From Thiotrichales bacterium (GTDB lineage: Bacteria > Pseudomonadota > Gammaproteobacteria > Thiomicrospirales > Thiomicrospiraceae), in the NCBI GenBank assembly GCA_022759035.1, contig JAEMQD010000066.1, forward strand, positions 1-43,248: a stretch of 43,248 bases of DNA, read 5' to 3'. Positions within the stretch are counted from its first letter, which is position 1. Every line of letters starts with the position of its first letter. Positions 2,514-20,483 of the stretch are shown here, piece after piece. The notes beneath the pieces are model-generated. The model made no database searches and was not told the origin of the DNA. It saw nothing but the letters and a program-made list of their open reading frames with translations. A program made the position numbers and the translations under genes.

Positions 2514-4382
2514 ATGCCTCAATATCGTTCTCGTACTTCTACTCATGGTCGCAATATGGCTGGCGCGCGTGCATTATGGCGGGCAACTGGAATGGGCGAA
2601 CAAGACTTTGGTAAACCGATTATTGCCATTGCAAACTCATTCACGCAGTTTGTGCCTGGGCATGTGCATTTGAAAGACTTAGGCCAACTTGTGGCACGTG
2701 AAATCGAAGCGGCAGGTGGTGTTGCGAAAGAATTTAATACCATTGCTGTTGATGATGGCATCGCTATGGGACATGATGGCATGCTGTATTCGCTTCCAAG
2801 CCGTGATTTGATTGCAGACAGTATTGAGTATATGGTTAATGCGCATTGTGCGGATGCGCTAATTTGTATTTCTAATTGCGACAAAATCACACCAGGCATG
2901 TTGATGGCTTCGCTACGCTTGAATATTCCGACCATTTTTGTTTCAGGCGGTCCGATGGAAGCTGGCAAGGTTGTGTTGGGTGGTAAAAAAATAAGCATCG
3001 ACTTGGTGGATGCGATGGTTGCTGCTGCAAACAATACGGTATGCGATACCGATGTTGATGCCATTGAACGTTCTGCTTGTCCAACTTGTGGTTCTTGTTC
3101 TGGCATGTTTACCGCTAATTCGATGAACTGTTTAGCGGAAGCATTAGGGTTGGCATTGCCAGGTAATGGCTCGGTGTTAGCTACACACGCTGATCGTAAA
3201 GAACTATTTTTAGAAGCAGGTCGTCGTATTGTTGAGCTAGCACGACGTTATTATGAGCAAAACGATGAAACAGTCTTGCCGCGTAGCATTGCGACTTTTG
3301 ATGCTTTTGAAAATGCTGTTGCATTAGACGTTGCAATGGGCGGGTCGACCAATACAGTGTTGCATCTTTTGGCCGCAGCCCATGAAGCCAAGGTTGAATT
3401 CACTATGGCTGATATTGATCGTATGAGTCGTAAAGTTCCTTGTTTGTCGAAAGTAGCGCCGAATCATCCAGATTATCATATGGAAGATGTGCATCGCGCG
3501 GGTGGCATTATGCGTATTCTTGCCGAGTTAGCGCGCGGTGGGTTATTACACACTCATTGCCATACAGTACATACGCCAACGATGGCAGATGCGATTGCTC
3601 GTTGGGACATTCGCGGCACTAAGGTTGATGAGTCGGTAAAAACGTTTTATAAAGCAGCACCTGGTGGCATTCGCACAACAGAAGCGTTTAGTCAGTCAGC
3701 GCGTTGGCAAACACTGGATGACGATGCAGAAAAAGGGTGTATTCGCTCGGTTGAGCATGCCTATACACAAGATGGTGGGCTAGCTGTTTTGTCCGGTAAT
3801 ATTGCACAACATGGTTGTATTGTTAAAACTGCTGGCGTTGATGAAAGTAACTTCTTCTTTGAAGGTCCAGTTCGTATTTATGAAAGCCAAGATGCTGCAG
3901 TAAAAGGGATTTTGGGTGATGAAGTACAGTCAGGAGAAGTGGTTGTTATTCGTTACGAAGGTCCTAAAGGAGGGCCAGGTATGCAGGAAATGCTTTACCC
4001 AACCTCTTATCTAAAGTCAAAAGGGTTAGGTAAAGCTTGCGCACTTTTGACTGACGGTCGTTTCTCTGGCGGCACTTCTGGATTGTCCATTGGTCATGTA
4101 TCGCCGGAAGCAGCAGAGGGTGGCAATATCGGTTTAGTACAGAATGGTGATATTATTACGATTGATATTCCGAATCGTAGTATTAATGTTAACTTAACCG
4201 ATGCTCAGTTGCAGGCGCGTCGTGAAGCAATGGAAGCGAAAGGCATTCATGCATGGCAACCAGAACACGCGCGTGAACGCACGGTCTCTCCTGCATTACG
4301 TGCCTATGCGGCAATGGCAACAAGTGCTGCTTTTGGTGCGGTGCGTGATGTTAGTCAAATTGAAATGCGGAAAAAGTCTTAA
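2514..4382 (+). CDS. ilvD: Dihydroxy-acid dehydratase
   Basis: IlvD dehydrates 2,3-dihydroxy-3-methylbutanoate and its homologue in valine, leucine and isoleucine synthesis. The frame extends upstream, but I place the start at ATG 2514. The protein then begins [15 protein letters not shown], as in E. coli IlvD, and an AAGGAA ribosome site lies 6-12 bases upstream. The resulting 622 residues fit the family. Iron-sulfur and Mg-site signatures are present: C122-D123-K124 in [11 protein letters not shown] (the lysine is normally carbamylated) and C189/C192/C195 in [17 protein letters not shown]. The enzyme is cytoplasmic and oxygen-sensitive. It is followed 33 bases later by a TerB-like gene, with no terminator between. 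Confidence 0.97.
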
Positions 4383-4871: not shown

Positions 4872-4891
4872 TTGTTTTTCAGCCAATAATA

Positions 4892-4918
4892 AAAAGCCAA
4901 ACGATTTGTTTGGCTTTT
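4892..4918. terminator. Bidirectional rho-independent terminator
   Basis: An 11-bp perfect stem (AAAAGCCAAAC / GTTTGGCTTTT) with a five-base loop is flanked by an A run on one side and a T run on the other. It therefore works in both directions. It sits between the convergent TerB-like gene (plus) and YjfB-like gene (minus) and can end both transcripts. Confidence 0.9.
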
Positions 4919-4930
4919 TTATTGCGCACG

Positions 4931-5137
4931 TTATGCGCTGACATCAATATTTTGTCCGAGATTAGGCGGATTGTTGACAGTTGTGCTGCTAGTTTCGGTT
5001 TGCGGTAATGCTGCGCCAATTAACGTTAACGCCGCCTGAGCATTCATATCGATTGCTTTCTTAAATAGACTAACCTGAATTTGCTGCATGGTTGCTGTTT
5101 GTTGTTGGTCTATCATGCTTGATGTATTGATTTCCAT
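4931..5137 (-). CDS. YjfB-like putative motility protein
   Basis: A 68-residue protein resembling the YjfB_motility family (named after B. subtilis YjfB). It has the short amphipathic middle QVSLFKKAIDMNAQAALTLI and the family-like tail NPPNLGQNIDVSA. I choose ATG 5135-5137 because an AAAGGGAG ribosome site lies eight bases upstream; the in-frame GTG nine bases earlier abuts that site and cannot use it. There is no signal peptide or membrane segment. The biochemical role is unknown in the family. A sequence matching a sigma-28 flagellar promoter lies just upstream (5184-5210), which supports expression with the flagellar/chemotaxis regulon. It stands alone, with terminators on both sides. Confidence 0.8.
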   Translation of the reverse strand: MEINTSSMIDQQQTATMQQIQVSLFKKAIDMNAQAALTLIGAALPQTETSSTTVNNPPNLGQNIDVSA

Positions 5138-5183
5138 CTCAGCCACTCCCTTTGATCATTGATATTATTAGTGTCTCTAAGTG

Positions 5184-5210
5184 GTATCGGCATCTTACTT
5201 ATTTTCTTGA
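5184..5210 (-). promoter_or_regulatory. Candidate sigma-28 (FliA) promoter of the YjfB-like gene
   Basis: Read on the minus strand, TCAA (5207-5210) is followed after exactly 15 bases by GCCGATAC (5184-5191). The enterobacterial sigma-28 consensus is TAAA-N15-GCCGATAA, so seven of eight -10 positions and three of four -35 positions match with correct spacing. The expected start near 5177 leaves a leader of about 40 bases to ATG 5137. Confidence 0.7.
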
Positions 5211-5220
5211 ATATTAGGCA

Positions 5221-5248
5221 TAAAAAAACCGCAGCATGACGCTGCGGT
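5221..5248 (-). terminator. Rho-independent terminator of the glycine-zipper lipoprotein gene
   Basis: On the minus strand an eight-bp stem ACCGCAGC / GCTGCGGT with a five-base loop is followed by seven T residues. It lies about 50 bases beyond the lipoprotein stop codon and insulates the YjfB-like gene from read-through. Confidence 0.9.
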
Positions 5249-18380: not shown

Positions 18381-20483
18381 ATGAAGATTAAGGGTAAGTT
18401 TACAGCAGCATTTGCGAGTGTTTTTTTATTGGTGTTGATGGGATCTTCCATTACTTTATGGATGAACCATCAAATGGAAGCACAAATTACGAAGATGCTT
18501 AAGCAAGATAATATCAAGTATGATCTTGCGCGAAAAATGCAATATGAAGCTTCCTTGCGCGCTGAAATTCAGCGAAACCTTGTCATTATGACCGATCCAG
18601 AACAGCTTGCTAAAGAACGTGCGCGTATGCGCGAGTCATCAGAACGTCATGGTAATTATGTTAACCAAATTAGTGCGTTGCCTTTGACAGATAGTGAGCG
18701 GGTCATGATTGAAAAAATCAAGCAGAATAGCGGAGAAACGTTCAACGCACTCGGTGAGTTTTTGGGTGACTTAGATGCCGATATGAAAGACGAAGCTGTT
18801 GATGTGCTTTATGGTTCGATGCGAGAAATTCAATCACGTTTCTTTAAGTTGGTCGATGATTTTACTGCATTGCAGGAGCAGGCCGTTGCTGCATCAGAAA
18901 AAGCATTATATAAATCGATTGCGTTCGGTAGCTTTGTACAATATTTTTTGGCTGGCTTATTGGCGTTAATGGTTACTGTGATTGGGGTTGCTTTAACACG
19001 TTCTATTGCTTTTCCTTTAACTGCCTTGACGCAAAAAATGCGCGATATTGCCAATTCAGCAGACTTTAGTCAGCATGTTTCGTTAGGTAAACGTTCAGAC
19101 GAAATTGGTGATAGCGTGACAGCATTTAATTACTTGCTTTCTCAGGTAGATCAATCTTTGAAAGAAGTGAATAAGGTGGTCCATGCGCTGGCACTAGGTG
19201 ATTTTAGTTTGCGTGTTGAAGGACAACTTAACGGTGACTTGGCGCACTTAAAACAACGTGTTAATGAATCGGCCGATGCGATTTCTGGCAGTATGGATTG
19301 CCTTTCTAAAGTACTCACTTCTTTGCAGCAAGGACAATTTAATATAGAAGCTGGTAAAGGTAATCTATCTGGACGTTATCTTGATTTGGTTGAACTCAGT
19401 ATTACCACCGCATCAAGTTTAGATGCAGTCGTTTCCGATGTGAATCGGACGATGGATGCTTTGGTTGCAGGTAATTTTGATGTGCGTGTGCAGGCCACAG
19501 CACAAGGTGATATGCAAACTTTGTCGCGTAGTATTAATCAAATGGCTGACGGTCTGGCGCAAGCAGTGGCGGATATTTTACAGTTAGCGACAGCTTTGTC
19601 TCAGGGAAAAGTCGCTTCAAGGATGCAAGGACAGTATTTAGGTTCATTGAACCAAATTGCAGAGTCGATGAATGCCGGGATGGCCAAAGTGCAAACGAGT
19701 TTGCAAGAAATCACACAAGCGGCACATATTGTAGAGCAAGCAAGTAGTGAAGTATCTGTGGGTAATCAAGACTTTTCGGATCGCACGCATCAGCAAGCAG
19801 TTGATTTGCAGAATGCGTTAAATTTAATGCATCAGGTGTTATCTGTATTGCAAAGTAACGTTAAGGTGACAGAGGAAGGTCGTTCTTTGGCATCACAAAC
19901 CCTACGTGCCTCTGAAGTTGGGGTGGTGAAAATGAACCATACCGTACAAGCGATGCAAGATATTCGCGATGCAAATGAAAAAATTACAGGGATTGTTAGC
20001 TTAATCGACTCGATTGCCTTCCAAACCAATTTATTGGCATTAAATGCGGCAGTTGAAGCAGCACGTGCCGGTGAACATGGTCGTGGTTTTGCGGTGGTTG
20101 CGAGTGAAGTGCGGGCGCTTGCAGCTAAATCGGCAGATGCTGCACAGGAAATTAAGGCTGTTGTTGCGTTATCAATTGAAAAAACGTCAATTGGCGATAC
20201 GCTGGTCGCTGAAACGGTCACAGCGTTTAAAGAAATTGAATCGCGTTTAGTACAAACAGACGGCGCTATTGCCCGTATCGCAGATGGGATGTCTGAGCAA
20301 CGGACAGGTGTTGAAGAAATTGGTAACAAAATGAATGAGATGGATCAAAGAACGCAGCAAAATGCGGCCTTGATTGAAGAAATTTCAGCGACTGCAAGTA
20401 CCTTACGTGAACAGGCTGCTGAAATGTTAGCCAGGGTTCAAGTGTTCGATTTGGCTGCGCCAACGACAAAGCTGCTTAATTAA
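18381..20483 (+). CDS. Methyl-accepting chemotaxis protein with a HAMP array
   Basis: This 700-residue chemoreceptor has a first membrane helix at about 8-28, a helical periplasmic sensor (29-180), a second helix (about 186-207) and a canonical HAMP domain (about 208-262). Four more HAMP-like repeats of about 45 residues follow, with cores [33 protein letters not shown] and [11 protein letters not shown]. The signalling domain (about 445-690) has its hairpin tip in [20 protein letters not shown] and [10 protein letters not shown]. The C-terminus lacks a CheR-binding NWETF-like pentapeptide. The ligand is unknown. It starts 12 bases after folA at the end of a long operon, away from any che gene. 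Its stop overlaps that of the convergent next gene. Confidence 0.9.

Follow-up and report, generated by a model that had tools for sequence, protein, structure and literature searches.

In Bacillus subtilis, yjfB is assigned to the sigma-D regulon. The protein family concerned, PF14070, already carries the Pfam name 'Putative motility protein', and a Pfam search with it also picks up B. subtilis. In the flagellar superoperons of other phyla, YjfB is an uncharacterised small protein whose gene adjoins that of sigma-28, beside FapA and FlgV (Nat Commun 2024, PMC11607428). Given the Pfam name and this gene order, an association between YjfB and flagella was already known. A literature search of partial coverage found no paper on the function of YjfB and no report of FliA control of YjfB in proteobacteria. 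The class-III promoters recognized by FliA in enterobacteria follow the Escherichia coli sigma-28 consensus TAAAGTTT-n11-GCCGATAA (PMC2859248).

The gene considered here lies in a window of 43,248 nt (the whole stretch of DNA analysed), which corresponds to contig 12 in a genome of 2.25 Mb, estimated as 99.5 % complete. The named near relatives of the source organism are sulfur-oxidising gammaproteobacteria (a Thiotrichales MAG, a Thiomicrospira cyclica MAG and Thiomicrorhabdus). For searches of named genomes, the broad YjfB alignment offered too little conservation to serve as a profile, and a single protein was used as the query instead. The gene product belongs to the same small, sigma-28-linked protein family as the superoperon YjfB, but whereas the link there is one of gene order, here it is made by a promoter that accompanies the gene through changing neighbourhoods. 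In contrast to the described PF14070 and B. subtilis members, this is a stand-alone gammaproteobacterial gene with its own insulated promoter. We read the site ahead of it as a probable sigma-28 (FliA) class-III flagellar promoter, which would place yjfB in the FliA regulon. The probability of this promoter and regulon assignment, as distinct from any activity of YjfB, is put at roughly 0.92.

The yjfB gene and its surroundings

The predicted protein matched PF14070 above the curated cut-off and over most of the profile (E 1e-11; 45.1 bits, cut-off 27; profile positions 6–56 of 57). In its AlphaFold model, one long helix (residues 5–43) is followed by a disordered tail that ends in the conserved C-terminal motif NLGxxI(D/N); the pLDDT of 65 denotes low confidence. 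On this model, YjfB could plausibly be a small helical accessory factor.

The minus strand carries the 3' end of a 17-kDa-antigen-like lipoprotein gene, followed in order by a terminator, the promoter box, a Shine-Dalgarno sequence, yjfB and a hairpin (Table 1). A TerB-like gene and then ilvD lie convergent to yjfB. The upstream terminator consists of a 9-bp stem and then T7 (-14.7 kcal/mol, z -3.2), and the downstream hairpin is sufficiently palindromic to work for the convergent TerB-like gene too. Flanked by terminator hairpins on both sides, yjfB thus forms a one-gene unit.

Table 1. Positions of the yjfB gene, its putative promoter and adjacent signals in the window
Feature	Position	Strand	Basis
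-35 octamer TCAAGAAA of the putative sigma-28 promoter	5203..5210	-	sequence, motif search, flagellin box with TAAAGAAA
-10 octamer GCCGATAC of the putative sigma-28 promoter, 11 nt off the -35 octamer	5184..5191	-	sequence, genome scan, motif search
yjfB-like gene, 68 aa, PF14070 YjfB_motility	4931..5137	-	ORF, Pfam match; start backed by relatives
Shine-Dalgarno GGGAG, 8 nt from the ATG	5146..5150	-	read from sequence
Intrinsic terminator closing the lipoprotein gene 5' of yjfB, immediately before the promoter	5228..5248	-	folding
Hairpin and T run 3' of yjfB	4891..4919	-	folding (-14.8 kcal/mol, z -6.4)

The remaining genes are housekeeping or unrelated, save one chemoreceptor gene, and no flagellar structural genes were found in the 43-kb window. 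The sequence-only reading had placed yjfB far from any flagellar gene in the window; this holds for structural genes, but a methyl-accepting chemotaxis protein (MCP) gene is located 13 kb away (18381–20483, plus strand), directly after a DHFR gene. No sigma-28 box was seen just upstream of the MCP gene, which is therefore probably co-read with its neighbours.

Fit of the promoter box to the sigma-28 consensus

The box, TCAAGAAA-N11-GCCGATAC, extends over 5210..5184 of the minus strand, and its 3' end lies 46 nt before the yjfB ATG (5137). The same promoter bases can also be read as TCAA (5210–5207), 15 nt and GCCGATAC (5191–5184), the form in which the sequence-only reading had reported the promoter, with correct sequence and coordinates.

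Compared with the E. coli consensus, the yjfB box has the exact spacing and matches at 7/8 positions of the -10 octamer and 4/8 of the -35 octamer. The T.AAG core of the -35 octamer is shared with the enterobacterial class-III promoters, whereas position 2 is C and AAA replaces the expected TTT. This unmatched extension of the -35 octamer (GAAA) counts against a sigma-28 reading. The same genome's flagellin promoter carries TAAAGAAA, so AAA after TMAAG also occurs in the organism's own flagellin box.

Chance predicts 0.04 occurrences of TCAA-N14..16-GCCGATA per window, and two were found; the second match (1524–1550, N16) was rejected, having the wrong spacing and lying within coding sequence of the opposite strand. 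Across the whole genome, TMAAGWWW-N11-GCCGATA had two exact matches, the yjfB box being one, and allowing one mismatch gave 16 sites compared to 3 for a reversed-pattern control. A weighted score over 16 positions, more lenient than the short pattern, assigned the yjfB site a value of 22. Seven further sites within the 43 kb equalled or exceeded this value, making eight sites of at least 22 against 2.1 expected from shuffles. As this score fails to single out the yjfB box within the window, the argument must rest on position and comparison. The sequence by itself does not prove the box; its position plus its conservation does.

FliA, FlgM and matching boxes in the source genome

The source genome contains an intact fliA (278 bits, cut-off 190) with flhF just upstream, together with flgM, so that both the cognate sigma factor and its anti-sigma factor are present, and it also has fliD, flgK and three flagellin genes. 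The sequence-only reading had suggested a search for fliA and had concluded that the organism is or was flagellated; with this gene set, it is very probably flagellated now.

Matching boxes were found before known flagellar genes, namely flgM (two sites), the flagellin genes, fliD and flgK. The flagellin promoters have the form TAAAGAAA...GTCGATAA and are identical ahead of two genes. These are tandem flagellin genes on contig 66 (boxes at 585–610 and 1850–1875); the pair may have arisen by recent duplication or be an effect of the assembly.

Two further boxes were observed elsewhere in the genome. One, on contig 34 (approximately 3777–3802, minus strand), is sigma-28-like and lies 42 nt before the gene of a secreted FecR-like protein, making this gene, on sequence grounds, one more candidate for FliA control beyond the flagellar clusters; the FecR-like family was assigned by eye and the first 110 aa have no Pfam match. 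The other, on contig 7 (50083–50108, minus strand), is a perfect sigma-28 box between a flgT-like gene and flgB and antisense to both. It possibly marks an antisense transcript, or is due to chance, and in view of its orientation this exact match was not counted as support.

Conservation of the box within the family

YjfB was present in 43/63 genomes of the same family. The 142 nt upstream of each yjfB, excluding the ribosome-binding site, were searched by expectation-maximisation with no consensus given. The motif recovered, CTAAAGttT-N11-GCCGATA, was found in 34/43 genomes (log-likelihood 324, compared to 89–98 on shuffled sequences). All four genomes of the window's own genus have the box, so that the presence of the box in relatives, which the sequence-only reading had named as a check, was borne out in 4/4 genus and 34/43 family genomes, with no clear box directly upstream in the rest. 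Neither of the two refutations proposed in that reading, absence of fliA and flagellar genes or loss of the box in relatives, was upheld. Within the genus, the lipoprotein–yjfB–TerB–ilvD synteny is preserved, and so largely are the octamers, despite divergence of the spacer and flanks. The neighbours of yjfB vary from genus to genus, and the box is therefore not a by-product of conserved surroundings. In one genus (L051, L054 and L057), yjfB has a divergent SprA-related gene on one side and two HDOD-domain genes on the other.

Six more family genomes, all of one genus, have the box at the head of an operon rather than directly before yjfB, which is the last gene. Here yjfB directly follows a YidD-like gene (6/6), itself preceded by another gene in 4/6, and the best or joint-best upstream box is just ahead of the first gene in 6/6 genomes, at about -1370 relative to yjfB in four and at -470 and -502 in two. 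The scores of these operon-head boxes are 20–23, such that the weakest is not secure alone. The L048-type operon (also L043, L053 and L055) comprises a gene for a protein of ~310 aa without a Pfam match (about -1280 to -329 from yjfB), the YidD-like gene and yjfB, with the sigma-28-like box ahead. The gene heading it is a candidate new late flagellar gene. For the three other family genomes with yjfB (G047, G051 and G060), no clear box was found nearby, and no consensus box was seen for some beta-proteobacterial and clostridial YjfB homologues.

Co-occurrence of YjfB and sigma-28 across the class

Among 370 genomes drawn evenly from the class, YjfB was found in 47, FlgM in 206 and both in 42 (odds ratio 8, Fisher p 2e-7, a rough value given that related genomes are not independent samples). 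Four of the five YjfB genomes without an FlgM match have FliA over the cut-off. In the fifth (G350), fliA lies in two fragments with a stop, and yjfB is a pseudogene, its ATG lost and its reading frame interrupted by a TAG. The promoter box persists there; the two genes have decayed together. Among 143 nearer relatives, FliA exceeded the cut-off in 47/48 YjfB genomes, the exception being an 86 %-complete assembly. YjfB thus tracks sigma-28, and the one clear exception is a genome in which both fliA and yjfB are broken.

An independent motif search on 44 upstream regions from outside the family returned tTaAAgtt-N11-GCCGaTA (log-likelihood 194, compared to 92–100 for shuffled sequences). Across family and class, the box is mostly 25–90 nt from the yjfB start codon. 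Two candidate companions of YjfB were set aside: FapA, its companion in other phyla, is found in only 17/370 class genomes and is absent from the source genome, and FlhF, associated with polar flagella, occurs in 43/47 YjfB genomes but shows only a weak excess among flagellated genomes (p 0.055).

Discussion

The assignment of yjfB to the FliA regulon is based on the sequence, spacing and position of the box, its conservation, the presence of FliA and FlgM, the boxes before flagellar genes and the co-occurrence across genomes. Because the box precedes yjfB in most relatives wherever the gene has moved, yjfB is almost certainly part of the late flagellar programme. The FliA/FlgM checkpoint is established, and it underlies both the reading of yjfB as a FliA-dependent one-gene unit and the timing that we infer for its transcription. 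Upon completion of the hook, FlgM would exit the cell and free FliA, and FliA-RNA polymerase would initiate near 5177, some 7 nt beyond the -10 octamer. Transcription as a single-gene unit between the two terminators would yield a short mRNA and from it a mostly helical protein of 68 aa with the conserved C-terminal motif.

That the box is a chance resemblance, with yjfB transcribed via another sigma factor, would accord with a score that is not outstanding within the window. We nevertheless consider this very improbable, as the motif was recovered unguided before yjfB across family and class, mostly within the stated distance of the start codon, and the region upstream of yjfB yielded no sigma-70-like promoter. 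It is just as improbable that yjfB is mainly read from the transcript of the lipoprotein gene, with the box as a relic. That gene has the same orientation and is only 162 nt off, but a strong terminator separates the two, the box has outlasted its diverging flanks within the genus and fliA is intact.

A different possibility accepts FliA control but has the protein serving a non-flagellar late process, such as surface attachment or signalling, merely co-ordinated with motility. In the neighbourhoods that were read, yjfB lies apart from flagellar clusters, which points in this direction, as do the HDOD and SprA-related genes adjoining it in one genus and the fact that about one-third of same-family genomes are without yjfB, nearly all of these having FliA. 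The placement of YjfB by the sigma-28 gene in the flagellar superoperon of other phyla (PMC11607428) argues against it, and we regard a non-flagellar role as unlikely, if worth keeping in view. We lean instead towards YjfB as an accessory of the FliA regulon that is widespread in gammaproteobacteria, selected to stay under sigma-28 control despite relocation and acting as an unrecognised small late flagellar or chemotaxis factor. In one genus of sulfur-oxidisers its gene shares an operon and, on this view, the same control with the genes of an uncharacterised protein and a YidD-like protein. The least certain element is the role itself: YjfB may assist the filament or chemotaxis system at a late stage, as a small chaperone-like or regulatory accessory.

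The sequence-only reading had presented the box as independently linking the family to late flagellar expression. As evidence this stands; the link as such could already be drawn from the Pfam name and from gene order (PMC11607428). What is new, and firmly supported by the genome comparisons, is systematic evidence for probable FliA control of yjfB in gammaproteobacteria. The regulon assignment is well supported, expected and ordinary in kind, and its novelty is modest. Assigning YjfB to the proteobacterial late flagellar regulon indicates where and when to seek a phenotype, and the stand-alone, insulated gene described here is simple to delete and simple to fuse to a reporter. It also provides a worked case of a promoter accompanying its gene as the neighbourhood changes.
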